A DNA stretch of 42,396 nt from a virus. Made by a program: the position numbers and the translations under genes. This document shows positions 12,301-30,866 of this stretch, piece by piece; position 1 is the stretch's first letter, and each line of letters opens with the position of its first letter. Under the pieces are notes generated by a model. It did no database searches. It saw only the letters and a list, made by a program, of their open reading frames with translations, and was not told the origin of the DNA. The stretch is from positions 1-42,396 of the IMG/VR virus record IMGVR_UViG_2199352024_000002; one strand, 5' to 3'.

Positions 12301-12772
12301 CCCCGCTTGGTCCAGTACAATGACAAATGGGCAGCTAATTATAGGAAATACCTCTGGCACCCCCACTGCAGCTACGATTACAGCAGGTACAGGGATTTCG
12401 GTAACTAATGGCGCTGGAACAATAACGATCGCTGGGACAGGCGCTATAACCACAACCGAAGTAACGGGCACAAGCCAGTCTATGGCGGTTAATAATCGTT
12501 ACATCGCAAACAATGCCGGGCTTGTCACTTTAACACTACCAACAACTGCGGCTTTAGGAGATTTCGTAGAAATAAGAGGGAAAGGGGCTGGGTTATTTAA
12601 AATAGCGCAGAATGCGAGCCAACTTATTCGATGGGTAAGCTCTGTTACAACAACAGGAACTGGCGGTTCATTAACGGCAATTGAAAGATATGACGCTATT
12701 CGTATTGAATGTATTACTGCTAATACAGATTGGATAGTAGTTGATAATACAGGAACCTATACCATCGTATGA
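9329..12772 (+). CDS. Giant repetitive tail fibre
   Basis: 1147 residues, the largest protein in the genome. The N-terminal domain (VGLRDGFDTKFDFPGDGI, about 24-41) is a virion-attachment type seen in long podovirus fibres. The shaft is built of imperfect repeats: NGGTNTTSAIGASGTIAQSD occurs three times in near-identical form (about 474, 587, 797), FLRADGTNWVASTAT-type units at least three times, and GTGITITNGAGTITI-type units four times. A distinct C-terminal domain (about 1050-1147) follows. Ser and Thr are very abundant. The repeats are nearly identical as protein but very different at synonymous codon positions. The end overlaps the next gene by ATGA. Confidence 0.85.
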   Translation: MTDGVPFSEFIDGEELQQNDIVVGLRDGFDTKFDFPGDGIKDASGNYLFKYFSSGTDNTNSIQLRNSPTGTPVAIIPTGSDTNASILMSSRNDGNVYIISPSNGNIFISNIGNGNTTIDILGMGNFRINTNTGYIVVNNTDPYNAVSNDPTLSADSAVTLPTQQAVKAYVDGSTPSLGQTFITNTDETASLPNSDPLALKPTGILASTTATGALDTRILTGTANQIDIANGDGSSDPTFTLSSTIVTPGTLTLGGNFFVTSYNIEATSGNVTIITDNSSAIDLSSPTVLIEQDLVHAGDPNNKITFGTDTQNFQTGGSSRMDISDSGMRLGGADARITSILTDTTMAGASDTNLYTGLAIKTYVDTSGGAAVTLSSAGGTETLVNDGVGPNLFTKGLTAGTGISLSSDGVSVTITNSDAGATVTLSNAGTTTLVNDGIGPNLFTKGLAVGTGMAAFGVSATDVTINLDVPVSISNGGTNTTSAIGASGTIAQSDGTKYTFTTATFPSTATSTGTFLRADGTNWVASTATLPNTAAQGDLLYGSATNVWTALAKNTSATRYLSNTGTSNNPAWAQIDLSNGVTGVLPIANGGTNTSTAIGASGTIAQSDGTKYTFTTATYPSTAGTTGTIHRSNGTNIVNSTATFADTYTASNLLYSNGSNTVTGLATANSASLVTNSTGVPAWSSTMTNGQVIIGSTGATPTAAALTQGTGITITNGAGSITIAASGGGSLPTITNSAALVSTAAGAAVWTSTMTNGQLVIGNTGGTPTTATLTQGTGMTITNGAGTITVALSTPVSIANGGTNTTSAIGASGTIAQSDGSKYTWTTATYPSTAGTAGKIHISDGTNIVASTPTYPNSATGTGKILRADGTNWVASTATYPDTATGTGTFLRADGTNWVASTATIPGTAGTSGTLLQSNGTNWVNTTATYPGTSGTSGTILRSNGTNIVNSTSTFADTYSASTLLYSNGANTVTGLATANSAVLVTNSSGVPAWSSTMTNGQLIIGNTSGTPTAATITAGTGISVTNGAGTITIAGTGAITTTEVTGTSQSMAVNNRYIANNAGLVTLTLPTTAALGDFVEIRGKGAGLFKIAQNASQLIRWVSSVTTTGTGGSLTAIERYDAIRIECITANTDWIVVDNTGTYTIV

Positions 12773-22619: not shown

Positions 22620-22755
22620 TTTCATAATCCTCTGTTTTTAATTTTTCTATTTCCTCTTTCAAAAAATTCAGATTAATTCTACTGATAGCAGCAAGTTTAT
22701 CAAGCTCATCTATTTTATTTATTATCTTTCCATATTTGTTATCACTAGTATTCAT
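22612..22755 (-). CDS. 47-residue helical hypothetical protein
   Basis: Begins MNTSDNKYGKIINKIDELDK, ends EKLKTEDYENE. A simple amphipathic helix or short coiled coil. It is ATGA-coupled to the Gp157-like gene upstream and overlaps the following start, so it lies in an unbroken series of coupled small genes. Function unknown. Confidence 0.55.
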   Translation of the reverse strand: MNTSDNKYGKIINKIDELDKLAAISRINLNFLKEEIEKLKTEDYENE

Positions 22756-23273
22756 TTTATTTCTATCCTTTTTGTTGTTACTAATTCTACGCCATCAATT
22801 ATAGCACCATCTTTTATCGCATTCTTCAATTTAAGCTTATTAGGACTTACAATTGTTCGAATCTTTATATATTCTTGTGGTAATTTTTCAACCTCACATT
22901 GAACCGCCACAGCGCTTGGATTATTCTTTACATAGATGGTAAATTCTGAGCATTCAAGACTTTTAATTCCGCTCTCATTAAATTTAGTTAATAAATATTC
23001 CTTGAATTTATCTAACTTATTTTTTAATCTAACCCTTTTCTCACGCATATTATCTTCTTTTTTACGCATTTCTATTTCATAATTCTGCATGGCTGTTAAT
23101 TCGGCTTCGATATTTTTGCAATAAGCCCCTAAATCTTGTGCCATTTCATTAGATAATGCGCCAAGTGTATCCTCTAATGCATCAGATGGTAAGTCATCCA
23201 TTTTTTGAAGGAGTTCTATTTTGCCAAGAAAATCATTCGTTACTTCATATATATTAAACATCTTCTGTTCCAT
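22752..23273 (-). CDS. Siphovirus Gp157-like protein
   Basis: 173 residues. The layout matches the Gp157 family: a helical N-terminus (MFNIYEVTNDFLGKIELLQK), a long charged coiled coil (EIEMRKKEDNMREKRVRLKN), then a conserved beta end (IYVKNNPSAVAV ... LPQEYIKIRTIVSPNKLKLK ... KDGAIIDGVELV). Family members occur next to phage recombination genes, as here, and have been linked to phage resistance or DNA metabolism without a settled biochemical role. Confidence 0.82.
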   Translation of the reverse strand: MEQKMFNIYEVTNDFLGKIELLQKMDDLPSDALEDTLGALSNEMAQDLGAYCKNIEAELTAMQNYEIEMRKKEDNMREKRVRLKNKLDKFKEYLLTKFNESGIKSLECSEFTIYVKNNPSAVAVQCEVEKLPQEYIKIRTIVSPNKLKLKNAIKDGAIIDGVELVTTKRIEIK

Positions 23274-23490: not shown

Positions 23491-23973
23491 TTAAGTCATA
23501 TCCATTTCTGGAACATCAATTGTTATTACTTCACCATCAGCACATAAATAACTAGTTGCAATATTTAATGAAGAAGAAGCATTTCCTTTAGGTGCAGCTC
23601 TAAAGAATGATTGAGCTCCTCCAAAGATGGCTGCATCTTTTTTGGCGTATGTCATATTACAAAATCGCACATCTGCCCCAGTAAAATTTGCACATCGTAT
23701 ATCAGCCCCTTTAAATGAAGCTGTTCTTAAAATAGCCCCTGTGAAATTGGCATTATAACAATTAGAACCGTTGAATTTCGCACCTATTAAATTGGCTTCG
23801 CGTAAATCCACATTTTCTAATACGCAATCCTCCAAATTAACATCCTTTAGGTAAGCTCCTCTTAAGGATATCTGTTTTTCAGCGCACTCTTCGATGACAT
23901 CACTCAATGATTCGTAATCTGCCTCATAGAGGCGTATGATTTTTCCATTACAATTTAAAATTTGTTTTTTCAT
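23491..23973 (-). CDS. Pentapeptide-repeat protein 1
   Basis: 160 residues. An N-terminal cap (VIEECAEKQISLRGA, 26-40) leads into pentapeptide repeats A(D/N)LxX from about 40 to 112 (AYLKD VNLED CVLEN VDLRE ANLIG), predicted to fold as a right-handed square beta helix. Such helices can mimic DNA (Qnr, MfpA), but the repeat tract is short and the target is unknown. Paralog of the gene at 25552: both have ISL(R/K)GA and AKK(D/N)...SFF. Confidence 0.8.
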   Translation of the reverse strand: MKKQILNCNGKIIRLYEADYESLSDVIEECAEKQISLRGAYLKDVNLEDCVLENVDLREANLIGAKFNGSNCYNANFTGAILRTASFKGADIRCANFTGADVRFCNMTYAKKDAAIFGGAQSFFRAAPKGNASSSLNIATSYLCADGEVITIDVPEMDMT

Positions 23974-24626: not shown

Positions 24627-24658
24627 GCACAACCATGCTCACCTCATTCTCCTATCTG
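24627..24658. repeat. 32-bp imperfect direct repeat, copy 2
   Basis: 28 of 32 bases match 24333-24364. It lies directly beyond the tRNA 3' end. It is followed leftward by about 22 codons (24643-24572) reading GEHGCAECKNKLNEVLKSIK and NED with no start codon, which look like the tail of a lost Cys-rich gene. Confidence 0.75.
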
Positions 24659-24741
24659 GTGGGGCGAGTTAGATTCGAACTAACGAAGGCAGAGCCAACA
24701 GATTTACAGTCTGCCACCTTTAACCACTTGGATATCGCCCC
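24657..24741 (-). tRNA. tRNA-Tyr (GTA)
   Basis: 85 bases including an encoded CCA. Acceptor GGGGCGA pairs with TCGCCCC; D-arm region TCCAAGTGGTTAAAGG; anticodon stem GCAGA/TCTGT around loop CTGTAAA with anticodon GTA; class II variable arm GGC-TCT-GCC; T-arm GTTAG-TTCGAAT-CTAAC. The layout matches bacterial tyrosine tRNAs. It is the only tRNA I found. It sits within the early leftward transcript and could supply Tyr decoding to the Tyr-rich fibre and early proteins, or be a relic of a host junction. Confidence 0.95.
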
Positions 24742-24961: not shown

Positions 24962-24972
24962 TTATCAATCCT
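24958..24972. repeat. 15-bp perfect direct repeat, copy 2
   Basis: Identical to 24565-24579. Holds the ribosome site and start of the EKHRxC gene at 24961. Confidence 0.8.
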
Positions 24973-25543
24973 TCTTTCTTCTGTATATATACAGTTCATC
25001 ATATATGCCTGTATAACAAGGAATAGAAATAGTTTCTATTAATTCCCATGATTTATTTAACTCATCATGGAATTTATCACACCCTGTACATCCTCCCGCA
25101 TCTTCTCCTATGTAAATTAAAGTATCACCTTGGTAAGTACTTAAACAATTAAAAGCAAACTTATTATCAAAGGGTGGCCAACATAGCATTAGAGCATAAT
25201 CTTTATATTTCTTTTTTTTCAATATTTCATAAGAGCCGACTTTTACTTTGTAAAATGCCTCTGCTTGATTAGTCGCCCCATTTTCAGCTACAACATATTT
25301 ATCAAAACATTCTATCGTGACGCCATATTCATTTAAAAGAGATGCCCAATAACCTTTACCCGCACCCATCTCAATTATCGGTTTATTTAAAGCAGCTATC
25401 GCTCGAATAGCTTTACTATTTGGAATAGCCCAGGAATATTTTCTTACCAATTCATCTCTCTCGCGCCAATGATAAACAGGATGACTGTCGCCAGGGAAAC
25501 ATGATATAAACTTATTGTATTCTTCCAAATATGGATTATTCAT
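24965..25543 (-). CDS. SAM-dependent methyltransferase-like protein
   Basis: 192 residues from ATG 25543; the longer frame would need a TTG start inside the pentapeptide gene. Motif I IIEMGAGKGYWASLL (56-70) forms the SAM-binding loop, and LMLCWPPFDN (118-127) resembles the catalytic (N/D)PP(Y/F) motif IV of amino-methyltransferases, with Cys-Trp replacing the acidic residue. VIYIGE-like LIYIGEDAGGCTGC follows. It may modify DNA, RNA or protein. The substrate cannot be told. No partner endonuclease lies nearby, so it is not a typical restriction system. Confidence 0.7.
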   Translation of the reverse strand: MNNPYLEEYNKFISCFPGDSHPVYHWRERDELVRKYSWAIPNSKAIRAIAALNKPIIEMGAGKGYWASLLNEYGVTIECFDKYVVAENGATNQAEAFYKVKVGSYEILKKKKYKDYALMLCWPPFDNKFAFNCLSTYQGDTLIYIGEDAGGCTGCDKFHDELNKSWELIETISIPCYTGIYDELYIYRRKKD

Positions 25544-25551
25544 TATGTATT

Positions 25552-26004
25552 TTACTTCTTTTTTGAGCAAGTAAAAGTATGATTTTCCGTCGATATTTCA
25601 CATATTTTTCTTTGCGCTTTATTGCCAAAAAATGAAATTCCATACCTATCGAAAGTTATGCCATTTTTTTTAGCATTCCTTAAATTGCAATTAATTATAA
25701 TAGAAGTTCGCAAGTCTGCCCACCTTAAATCAGCACTGGTTAAATTACAACTATAAAAGCTAGCGCCTCTTAAATTAGCCTCCATTAAGGAGGCTCCTGT
25801 TAAATTGCAACTATAAAAACTGGCACAATTTAAATTGATTTGGTTTAAATTCAGCCCTGATAAATCGTTTCCTCTGAAAACAGCTCCCTTTAACGAAATA
25901 TCGTGAGAAGCACAGTATTCGAGGGTTTTTTGAATGGAATTATCTTCAAAAAAGGATATAAGTAGTATTTCATTATACTGCTTATATATTACCACTTGTT
26001 TCAT
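25552..26004 (-). CDS. Pentapeptide-repeat protein 2
   Basis: 150 residues. Cap with CASHDISLKGA (32-42), then pentapeptides DLSGL NLNQI NLNCA SFYSC NLTGA SLMEA NLRGA SFYSC NLTSA DLRWA DLRTS, ending near residue 105, then a basic Cys-containing tail (STENHTFTCSKKK). The unit ASFYSCNLT occurs twice. Paralog of 23491. Ribosome site GGAG 7 bases upstream. A DNA-mimic or host-enzyme inhibitor role is possible but not shown. Confidence 0.8.
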   Translation of the reverse strand: MKQVVIYKQYNEILLISFFEDNSIQKTLEYCASHDISLKGAVFRGNDLSGLNLNQINLNCASFYSCNLTGASLMEANLRGASFYSCNLTSADLRWADLRTSIIINCNLRNAKKNGITFDRYGISFFGNKAQRKICEISTENHTFTCSKKK

Positions 26005-26582: not shown

Positions 26583-26798
26583 ATGAGGTTTGATTTTGCC
26601 ACAGAAAAAAGTATATTAAGCGATTACAGTGTTCAATATATATCATTAAATGTAGGAGTGAGTTTACACTATGTCAGAAGATTTTTAACGTCTAATAGAA
26701 ATACAACCTTTAAATTATATATTTTGGAAAAATTATGTAATTTTGCTAGGGATATAGAAGCTAATCCTGAAGCTCATGCTGAGGGCAAACGTAGATAA
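26583..26798 (+). CDS. Small HTH (Cro-like) DNA-binding protein
   Basis: 71 residues, ribosome site GGAGAA 6 bases upstream. The segment ILSDYSVQYISLNVGVSLHY then VRRFLTSNRNTTFKLYILEK has the spacing of a lambda-Cro/C1-type helix-turn-helix (turn around NVGVS, recognition helix LHYVRRFL). First gene after the rightward promoter and next to the divergent leftward one, so it probably regulates this switch region. No matching CI-type repressor was found. Confidence 0.68.
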   Translation: MRFDFATEKSILSDYSVQYISLNVGVSLHYVRRFLTSNRNTTFKLYILEKLCNFARDIEANPEAHAEGKRR

Positions 26799-26807
26799 GG
26801 ATGAAAA

Positions 26808-28310
26808 ATGGCTACATCTCTGCCATATTCACATGAAGCAGAGTGGGCGGTTTTGGGATCACTTTTACTAAACAATCATTGTTATAAAGATATAGCATCA
26901 ATTATTACGGTTTCTGATTTTGATAATGTTTTAAACATGAAGACATTTGAAGCCATAGAGATGTTATTGTCTAATAATAATGCGGTAGATGCGATCTTAT
27001 TAACGGAACACTTCAAAGACGATCCCTCTTTTGGGAAAACTCATTTTTTTGATTTGATTCGCCAACAAGTTTGTCCAACCAATATCCTTTATTACGCACA
27101 AATCATAAGAGATAAAGCCCTTCTAAGACATCTTTATCGCCTAACTGATACGGCAAAGAACAATATCTTTGAAACCAATATCAACCCAACCAAAATTATT
27201 AGCGAACTAACAACCGCTTTAGAGCATTTACAAACCAAAGCAAAAGCCAATGATAAAGACTGGTTAATGGATGCTAGCGAATGTTTAGAGCAACCTGCAC
27301 CCCAACATTGGCTTGTTAAGCATTGGCTTCCTAAGCGTTCTCTTTGCATGCTAGAAGCAAAACCCGCAGCTGGCAAGTCCTTTTTAGCCTTAGATTGGGC
27401 CCTAAGAATAGCCAATGGAGTGCCCTTCTGGCTTAATCATAAGGTAAGCAAAGGAATAGTGGTGTATCTAGCTGGAGAAGGCCACTATGGCCTTAGAAGG
27501 CGTGTTAAAGCCTGGTGCCAAGTTAACAAAGTGGAAACAAAAGATTTATATTTATCCCAAAGTGGCTGTCATTTAGATACCGAAGAAGGTTATCAAAAGG
27601 TTTTATCAACAATTAAAAAAAAATCCATTATTCCATCACTTATTGTTGTTGATACTCTACATCGCTTCCTCGCGGGACATGTTAATGACTCCCAAGATGC
27701 CAGCAAAATGATTACCGCTTGTGACAAATTAAAACAAGAATTTGATGCAACTATCCTTCTAATTCATCATGTAGGCCATAATGCCGACCATAAACACCGA
27801 GGTGTAGGCTCTATCGTTCTAAGCGCAGCTCTGGATATTGACTTAAATTTAGAAAACATAGAAGGTAAATTACATCTTACTCAGCCTAAGCCCAAAGATT
27901 GTGAACGCGCAGAAAAATTAATATTAGAATTAAAACAAATTACTATACAAAATTGGCTTGATGATGAAGGTGAGCCTGTTACGAGTGCTATTATAGTACA
28001 GGCTGAAGAAACGATAGAGCAAAAAGAGGCCAATATTACGCTTATTAATCATCAAAAAATGTTCAATCTAGCTTGGGAATTTGCTGGTAAAAAGCTAAAT
28101 TATGAACAAAAACCGTACATTTATCGCCATGAATTTTATGATTTTCTCGTCAATGAGCGTGGATTTTCCCCACGTTCTGCGCAACAATCTCTCAAAAACT
28201 CGGATACAAAAAGAACAATTGGCTTTCTTTTAGTAAATAAAATGCTCAGCATCTTCGGCGATGGCTGGGCAATATTTAATCAGGAATGGTTAAATAATAT
28301 ACTAAAATAA
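26808..28310 (+). CDS. Replicative helicase: DnaB N-terminal domain fused to RepA-like AAA ATPase
   Basis: 500 residues. Residues 1-120 (LPYSHEAEWAVLGSLLLNNH ... YYAQIIRDKALLRHLYRL) match the DnaB N-terminal helical domain. The ATPase part is of the RSF1010 RepA / AAA_25 type, not the DnaB C-domain: Walker A AKPAAGKSF (184-192), LAGEGHYGLRRRVKAW (221-236), Walker B LIVVDTLHR (278-286), NDSQDASKM (293-301) and H-motif LLIHHVGHNAD (317-327). It should unwind the phage origin and recruit host primase and polymerase. The C-terminal 100 residues are helical and variable. Confidence 0.87.
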   Translation: MATSLPYSHEAEWAVLGSLLLNNHCYKDIASIITVSDFDNVLNMKTFEAIEMLLSNNNAVDAILLTEHFKDDPSFGKTHFFDLIRQQVCPTNILYYAQIIRDKALLRHLYRLTDTAKNNIFETNINPTKIISELTTALEHLQTKAKANDKDWLMDASECLEQPAPQHWLVKHWLPKRSLCMLEAKPAAGKSFLALDWALRIANGVPFWLNHKVSKGIVVYLAGEGHYGLRRRVKAWCQVNKVETKDLYLSQSGCHLDTEEGYQKVLSTIKKKSIIPSLIVVDTLHRFLAGHVNDSQDASKMITACDKLKQEFDATILLIHHVGHNADHKHRGVGSIVLSAALDIDLNLENIEGKLHLTQPKPKDCERAEKLILELKQITIQNWLDDEGEPVTSAIIVQAEETIEQKEANITLINHQKMFNLAWEFAGKKLNYEQKPYIYRHEFYDFLVNERGFSPRSAQQSLKNSDTKRTIGFLLVNKMLSIFGDGWAIFNQEWLNNILK

Positions 28311-28329
28311 GAGCGTGGTCAAATAATAT

Positions 28330-28395
28330 ACGATTCGGGTACACGCCGTACACGCCGGTACATCGCGGTACACGTTTTCGATGTACCCGAATCGT
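28330..28395. repeat. 14-bp inverted repeat enclosing four iteron-like units
   Basis: Perfect arms ACGATTCGGGTACA (28330-28343) and TGTACCCGAATCGT (28382-28395). Between and overlapping them are four GC-rich units on a GGTACA(C/T)CGC theme: GGTACACGCC, GTACACGCC, GGTACATCGC, GGTACACGTT. It starts 20 bases after the helicase stop. It could be a replication-origin iteron cluster or operator. No U-tract follows, so it is not a standard terminator. Confidence 0.75.
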
Positions 28396-28482
28396 TCATT
28401 TCTTACTCTAGTTTTGTATTAAAAATAACACTCAATCGATCGGTTAATTACACTGTGATTATAATTTAATCTAAATTTGTTC

Positions 28483-28682
28483 TTTTTTGAGCGTTTTCGG
28501 TACATGTTTGGCCCAGCTCGCTACCATGCACGCAAGTTACTACACCCAGTATACCCTTACGGGTATACTAGGGGGTGTAGTATACACTTACCGCTTGTGC
28601 GTGGCACTAAGGTGCAGCACGCGGACGGTACCCTAGCGTTGCGATGGTATCTGCGCTAGCTCCCCCTCCGGCTCTCAAAAAA
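28483..28682. other. 200-bp structured non-coding element with stacked hairpins
   Basis: Bounded by TTTTTTGAG (28483-28491) and CTCAAAAAA (28674-28682). Inside: a hairpin at 28538-28582 with 19 paired bases (TACTACACCC and AGTATACCC, TTAC loop, 3-base bulge), flanked by further partial pairing of GCAC..AAG with CTTGTGC; a hairpin at 28599-28622 (GCGTGGCAC, TAAG loop, GTGC-AG-CACGC); and CTAGCG/CGCTAG (28633-28659). It is markedly GC-rich in an AT-rich genome. A TATAAT at 28460-28465 lies upstream. The stretch 28311-28776 has no convincing gene. Candidate origin, structured RNA or insertion. Confidence 0.7.
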
Positions 28683-28776
28683 AATAATTTTGAAGAAAGA
28701 ATTTTTGAGTTGAAAAAGTAAACAATTTGGGATAAGGTGAAAACTCAGTTTGGAAAATGAAAATTCAGGAGGAATG

Positions 28777-29268
28777 ATGAAGAAGATTGTCTATACGCAA
28801 GAATTGATTTTAAAAATTATAAGCGCAAGGAGGAATGGAGGATCTCTAGGGCTGGGGTATGTACTGGTAGATAATAAAACGCGTCTCCATGAGCCTGCAA
28901 TTGACTCTGGAGGCTATGAAAGTGCGGCATTTAAGGAGGCATTCTGGGAAACAAAGAGTAATTGCCAAGAATTGTGCAATTATAAGTTCCTGAGAATAGT
29001 CGATCACCACTTAGAAATTTATTTTACTATAAATGGAAGGGATTTGGAGGCCCTTGTTTGGAGCTTTATTGATAATTCATTTCTAAATACAGATTGCTAT
29101 AAAAAAGTCGTAAAGAAATTTTATGGTCATTTAAAAGACTGTTATGGCTTTTGCTCTAAATTACAATGCGACTTTGAGAAATATTGGATTTCACGTGAAG
29201 ATGCCTTGAGAGTAGCCAAATATAAACGCAAGAAAAAGAATTTAATAAAAGAAGGCGAAAATACTTGA
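28777..29268 (+). CDS. Hypothetical basic protein of the replication operon
   Basis: 163 residues from ATG 28777, with AGGAGG 4 bases before it; the adjacent ATG 28774 is too close to that site. Mixed alpha/beta, basic C-terminus (KYKRKKKNLIKEGENT), four scattered Cys. GYVLVDNKTRLHEPAI and DREDALRVAKYKR-type segments do not match a family I know. Its place after the helicase and the structured element, and before the terminator, suggests replication or its control. Confidence 0.6.
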   Translation: MKKIVYTQELILKIISARRNGGSLGLGYVLVDNKTRLHEPAIDSGGYESAAFKEAFWETKSNCQELCNYKFLRIVDHHLEIYFTINGRDLEALVWSFIDNSFLNTDCYKKVVKKFYGHLKDCYGFCSKLQCDFEKYWISREDALRVAKYKRKKKNLIKEGENT

Positions 29269-30668: not shown

Positions 30669-30866
30669 TTAATCCTCCTTTTCTTCTATTTTTTTATTTA
30701 TCCAAGCATTTACTTCTGTTTCTACCCATAGATTGTTTCGTAGGCCAAACTTAACCGGTTTGGGACACAACCCATTTTTTAACATCTCGTAAAATGTACT
30801 TCTACTCATATGTATTTTATCTAAAACCTGTTGCAATTTTAAAAATTTAATTTCTTTTTCATTCAT
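30669..30866 (-). CDS. AlpA-type helix-turn-helix regulator
   Basis: 65 residues. LKLQQVLDKIHMSRSTFYEM (9-28) is a MerR/AlpA-like HTH, followed by a wing (GLCPKPVKFGLRNNLWVETE) and the usual VNAWINKK end. Proteins of this family act as transcription regulators or excisionases. With no integrase in the genome, regulation is the likelier role. It lies a short way from the repeat modules at 31103-31232, which could hold its binding sites. Confidence 0.82.
   Translation of the reverse strand: MNEKEIKFLKLQQVLDKIHMSRSTFYEMLKNGLCPKPVKFGLRNNLWVETEVNAWINKKIEEKED

Follow-up and report, generated by a model that had tools for sequence, protein, structure and literature searches.

A probable iteron-type replication origin with a conserved folding element directly downstream of a DnaB/RepA-like helicase gene in a 42.4-kb phage genome

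Most phage origins are unmapped. SaPI and SCCmec elements are established cases of an origin placed just 3' of its initiator gene: the C-terminal domain of the helicase binds repeats just downstream of its own gene, and in SCCmec deletion of inverted repeats left Cch2 binding unaffected (PMC7581432). In the plasmid pRN1 of Sulfolobus, the replication gene is closely followed by an essential stem-loop of ~100 nt, whose structure is conserved without conservation of sequence, and a similar stem-loop is present in Bordetella phage BIP-1 (PMC4234260). The oriV of RSF1010 contains iterons together with the single-strand hairpins ssiA and ssiB, which are used for priming, and in satellite phage P4 a single helicase protein, alpha, binds repeats through its winged helix (PMC4234260). 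The probable phage origin described here joins features of pRN1 with those of SaPI/SCCmec, and has in addition a three-way junction and a helicase of another, DnaB/RepA-like kind. No description of such a folded, iteron-bearing origin beside a DnaB/RepA-like helicase was found in the open-licence literature.

The whole stretch of DNA analysed, called the window here, is the 42,396-nucleotide IMG/VR virus record IMGVR_UViG_2199352024_000002, which carries terminase, portal, scaffold, major head and tail genes and has a GC content of 38%. Its replicative helicase is encoded on the plus strand (26808-28310), directly downstream of a 71-aa ORF (26583-26798, plus strand) which has no PHROG or Pfam match and whose slot is taken by an XRE/Cro-like regulator in distant relatives. 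The folding element lies between the helicase gene and a 163-aa ORF (28777-29268, plus strand), which has no match in PHROG. A first-pass annotation, made from the letters of the window, had placed the element directly after the helicase gene. The element in fact starts about 205 nt past the helicase stop (28310), and an iteron cluster occupies the gap. Only one close relative was present in the viral collection, IMGVR_UViG_3300035170_000052 (L003), with a helicase 77% identical to that of the window. Gene order in L003 is the same, the counterpart of the 71-aa ORF is also 71 aa long, and the element could be aligned across the whole block.

Several copies of one short non-coding repeat, a hallmark of iteron origins, are present at this locus in both the window and L003. 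The iteron block of the window (28325-28400), enclosed by a 19-nt inverted repeat (28325-28343/28382-28400), contains GGTACA at 28338, 28357 and 28367 on the plus strand and at 28387 on the minus strand, along with GTACACG at 28348. Of the 18 GGTACA copies in the window, five fall within the 162 bp from 28338 to 28499 (Poisson P ~2e-9). In L003, seven copies lie between 12444 and 12821 (7 within 373 bp) and flank the fold on both sides, and in both genomes the clustering is confined to this region. As in iteron origins, an AT-rich region adjoins the repeats: the stretch 28405-28490 has 23% GC as compared to 38% for the genome, in keeping with the AT-rich surroundings noted in the first pass, and is strongly conserved in L003. 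It is a candidate DNA-unwinding element. A single iteron, CGGTACAT (28498-28505, plus strand), separates this stretch from the fold.

The block downstream is GC-rich and folds strongly, as originally noticed. GC content is 56% in 28513-28667 against 38% for the genome, and the folding energy of 28470-28700 was -83.5 kcal/mol as compared to a shuffle mean of -63.9 kcal/mol (z -4.3; 0/200 shuffles as good). For the element alone z was -4.3 against shuffles, and -4.4 with DNA parameters. Three separate hairpins had been proposed, but comparison with the relative supports instead one Y-shaped element, a three-way junction of 54 consensus pairs (28515-28661, plus strand), in which a closing stem (28515-28536 with 28633-28661) holds two arms. 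Arm A (28538-28582) comprises a lower stem (28538-28547/28573-28582) and an upper stem (28548-28556/28561-28569), with the loop TTAC at 28557-28560 and a 3-nt bulge, AGG, at 28570-28572; the hairpin of 19 paired bases with a 4-nt loop seen earlier is thus real (28538-28556 with 28561-28582), and no other 64-nt hairpin in the 42-kb window is as strong. Arm B (28591-28624) is formed by 28591-28600/28617-28624 and 28604-28607/28612-28615 around the loop TAAG (28608-28611). The 9-bp inverted repeat TTTTTTGAG/CTCAAAAAA, which had been taken as the frame of the block, is near chance level, as such a pair occurred in 52/500 dinucleotide shuffles of the intergenic region (10%), and it is not conserved in L003. 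The pair is therefore incidental, and the real boundary of the element is the inner closing stem (28515-28661). A coding explanation was ruled out, in agreement with the first reading, by a 2-nt indel in L003 which disrupts the 60-aa frame at 28477-28659.

A lack of compensatory changes among relatives had been named in the first pass as a ground for refutation, and this check did not refute the element. Between the window and L003, 20 of 25 substitutions fell at paired positions. In the joint fold of the two sequences 10 of the 54 pairs differ, and all 10 are double compensatory changes, two of them in the lower stem of arm A and two in arm B, with no one-sided change and no broken pair. When pairing partners were shifted by 1-3 columns, at most one double compensatory pair was left. 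When 25 random substitutions were placed on the window sequence and each trial was given its own best fold, the maximum was 5 double changes in 1000 trials. A fold built from the window only, without L003, still gave 7 double changes against a null maximum of 4. Thus, the fold of 28515-28661 is conserved, beyond what chance would give. The non-coding element is also better conserved between the two genomes than the 163-aa ORF downstream, the products of which share 48% identity.

A large hairpin 3' of the replication gene, with its structure kept in relatives, is what characterises pRN1-type origins, and it is found here well beyond the closest relative. Related helicases occur in cultured phages (Idiomarinaceae phage 1N2-2, Alteromonas phage PB15 and Salicola phage CGphi29), all of which have an ATPase gene on the other strand, a small regulator and the helicase, followed by a repeat-filled intergenic region (GGTACA in 1N2-2, GGTTCA in PB15 and GGGACA in CGphi29). 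A scan with a helicase alignment gave 80 viral loci, and 46 regions downstream of the helicase were examined. Most of these regions carried, in the first 400 nt after the helicase stop, a lineage-specific 6-mer in 5-16 copies, and most related loci had a strong hairpin within a few hundred bases of the stop; both iterons and a clear hairpin were missing from a few relatives (L112, L127). The recurring pattern begins with a GGGGCAAAA-like motif and tandem repeats, after which come a long stem, with CCTTTAGG or CCTATAGG at its apex and a two-base bulge on its 3' side, and finally a CGATGCGG-like motif. In 15 of 30 own pairings the hairpin included the lineage's own repeat, as against 62 of 864 (7%) swapped ones, the lineages being not fully independent of one another. 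Family-wide, GGGGCAAAA and CGATGCGG flank the hairpin in many relatives (L068-L145, ~50-250 nt past the helicase stop).

Unlike the hairpins of many relatives, arm A of the window and L003 does not contain the iteron 6-mer, and its homology to the family hairpin therefore rests on position, bulge and apex; the apex CCTTACGG is common to the window and L144. A more diverged member, L067, encodes a helicase which is 44% identical and of the same DnaB-N type, followed by GGTAAC repeats, a fold and a small ORF. With almost no sequence identity to the window, the fold of L067 has the same topology, namely a closing stem, an arm A whose 3' side bears a two-base bulge, and an arm B. A small ORF thus comes after the fold in L067 too, as the 163-aa ORF does in the window. 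The Y shape was seen in three members only, two of which are close relatives, while relatives carrying a TOPRIM primase mostly have a single hairpin. From these two lineages we hypothesise that arm B accompanies the DnaB-type N-terminus. Helicase-based scans for further relatives of the DnaB-N type returned only L003 and L067, and 398 genomes of one phylum yielded three distant helicases. Searches with the element itself gave little more: blastn against phage and plasmid collections gave no match, the exact motifs GTATACCCTTACGGGTATACT and CTAGCG-N-CGCTAGCTCCCC matched L003 only among viral contigs, CACTAAGGTGCAGC occurred in 51 stretches of viral contigs of which that of L003 alone resembled the element, and a loose motif gave 4 matches in genome contigs, none of them resembling it.

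Iteron origins further have, beside the repeats, the gene of a cognate initiator that carries a DNA-binding domain, and here the proposed initiator is the helicase (26808-28310). The protein comprises a DnaB-like N-terminal domain, a RecA-like (RepA/DnaB) motor and a predicted C-terminal winged helix (residues ~403-499). Pfam matches were to DnaB (1.1e-17) and AAA_25 (9.2e-39), and DnaB and RSF1010 RepA (1nlf) were among the Foldseek matches of the model. The N-terminal part of the full model is of low confidence, so the DnaB_N assignment rests on sequence. The C-terminus is confidently predicted to be a winged helix (AF2 pLDDT of 94.9 for the last 100 residues). Winged-helix proteins matched it with Z up to 6.8, values (Z 6-7) that speak for the general winged-helix arrangement only, and a Foldseek search with this domain by itself yielded nothing better than E 0.1. 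No primase family was detected among the window proteins scanned; given the DnaB-type N-terminal domain of the helicase, the primase is likely to be supplied by the host as DnaG.

Comparison with the described systems shows likeness to each of them in part. Like pRN1 and BIP-1, the phage has the order repressor gene, helicase or replication gene, stem-loop, keeps structure while sequence diverges, and has a C-terminal winged helix, in its case a predicted one, on the replication protein (PMC4234260). However, pRN1 combines an archaeo-eukaryotic primase with an SF3 helicase and has one stem-loop and no iterons (PMC4234260), whereas the phage has DnaB_N with an AAA_25 RecA-type motor, that is a RecA-fold helicase of DnaB/RepA type, along with iterons and a three-way junction. 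With SaPI Rep and SCCmec Cch2 it shares the placement of iterons immediately after the initiator-helicase gene and a C-terminal domain for binding dsDNA, which is predicted in our case, but the helicase there belongs to another superfamily and no conserved large fold is described (PMC7581432). The motor domain resembles RepA of RSF1010, where, in contrast, the jobs are split over RepC, RepA and RepB' and the ssi hairpins are short and simple; no relative of RepC or RepB' was found among the subset of window proteins scanned. P4 alpha and the distant relatives of the phage carry a TOPRIM primase of their own, in place of which the window helicase has a DnaB N-terminal domain.

Taken with these likenesses, the data make it probable that 28325-28661 is an iteron-type replication origin that includes a folded DNA element and directly follows the gene of its own initiator-helicase. 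An origin had been among three suggestions of the first-pass annotation, and it is the best supported of them, by the iterons, the AT-rich stretch, the conserved position, the winged helix and a switch in codon skew. For plus-strand genes, third-codon GC skew is -0.04 to the left and +0.20 to the right of the region (Fisher p 2e-8), and for minus-strand genes to the left it is +0.13. The flip is compatible with two forks leaving this region, but skew places an origin no finer than ~26-32 kb and also differs with gene class. At such an origin, the helicase would bind the GGTACA iterons via its C-terminal winged helix, upon which the adjoining AT-rich stretch would open. Either as the single strand thus exposed or as an extruded cruciform, 28515-28661 could then fold in vivo into the three-way junction with bulged arm A and arm B, and the junction may position the helicase hexamer and/or mark the start of the first primer of the host primase.

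A covarying fold of 147 nt could also be expected of a structured RNA, which the first-pass annotation had proposed to be expressed from the TATAAT at 28460. Such an RNA would regulate the 163-aa ORF or prime replication, and could be either that ORF's 5' leader or a small RNA. The TATAAT is indeed present (28460-28465), within the conserved AT-rich stretch upstream of the fold, the ORF has a Shine-Dalgarno sequence, and the element is better conserved than the ORF, but a promoter scan revealed no recognisable -35 box. Rfam (4227 families at gathering score) gave no match either, the best sub-threshold hits having E 4 for the window and E 0.28 for L003, and relaxed thresholds brought up hits at chance level only. 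RNA folds tolerate G-U pairs, while DNA hairpins or cruciforms gain nothing from G-T. On the consensus, G-U pairs numbered 0/54 in the window and 0/54 in L003, i.e. none in 108 cells, with no one-sided change, and 0/42 in L067, as against 10-14% in shuffled sequences. The G-U share of the family hairpins was 3.7% versus 14% in shuffles. Consensus folding itself prefers strong pairs, which limits this argument, and the window's own MFE fold has 4 G-U pairs out of 56. G-U counts from 320-nt alignments of close pairs were dropped as too noisy, since unstructured flanks form spurious pairs. Since the consensus pairs are devoid of the G-U that RNA would tolerate, their composition favours folding as DNA over folding as RNA. 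The hairpin of relatives moreover shares the sequence of the DNA repeats, which is needless for an RNA. We therefore consider a structured RNA unlikely.

Sharing of iteron sequence by the relatives' hairpins, and the occurrence of iterons in inverted repeats, would also suit a double-stranded regulatory site, at which palindromes serve as operators for a phage regulator such as the 71-aa protein or the helicase and the fold merely reflects symmetric sites. Paired operators, however, need neither a bulge nor a junction nor a long-range closing stem with its arms ~100 nt apart, all of which covary here, and relatives have these sites after the helicase gene; this explanation appears quite improbable. 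Least credible is the remaining suggestion of the first pass, insertion of a miniature mobile element behind the helicase gene, in favour of which stand the compactness and GC richness of the block and its apparent 9-bp terminal inverted repeat. That repeat is at chance level and not conserved, the element is present as a single copy in the window, it occupies the same place in relatives with 77% and 44% identical helicases, and the phage and plasmid collections held no match. With neither conserved terminal repeats nor multiple copies, an inserted element is largely refuted.

If the region is indeed an origin, it would offer a rule for locating origins in a large group of cultured and uncultured phages with RepA/DnaB helicases, namely lineage repeats and a hairpin just 3' of the helicase gene. 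Repeat and hairpin would both be tied to the winged helix of one protein, the idea of a stem-loop origin known from pRN1 would extend to another helicase superfamily, and the mechanism of a folded-DNA origin would be open to compensatory mutation. More tentatively, Y-shaped single-stranded DNA and repeats may be recognised together by a DnaB-type winged-helix helicase, with the phage group keeping the structure while repeats and hairpin drift together into a private origin code for each lineage; a second arm might then have been acquired where the primase domain was exchanged for a DnaB N-terminal domain, perhaps recruiting the host primase.

Some further observations were made in and around the element. 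CTAGCG and CGCTAG (28635-28661 of the window) are unchanged in L003 and could pair locally, giving a hairpin incompatible with the outer closing stem, an alternative fold without covariation support. In L003, AGTATACCCTTACGG is present twice within 12648-12697 (28548-28595 in the window, where the second copy has one mismatch), and GGGTATACTA of L003 could pair with either copy, giving 9 bp inside arm A or an alternative 10-bp hairpin with a 7-base loop. A conformational switch is thus possible. Elsewhere in the window, a Mu Gam-like end-protection protein is encoded at 22752-23273 and a phage tRNA-Tyr (gta) on the minus strand at 24657-24741. A related-looking pair of pentapeptide-repeat proteins is encoded at 23491-23973 (recognised by eye only) and 25552-26004 (Pfam match), with a methyltransferase-like gene nearby at 24965-25570. 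An excisionase-like regulator at 30669-30866 hints that the phage is temperate.
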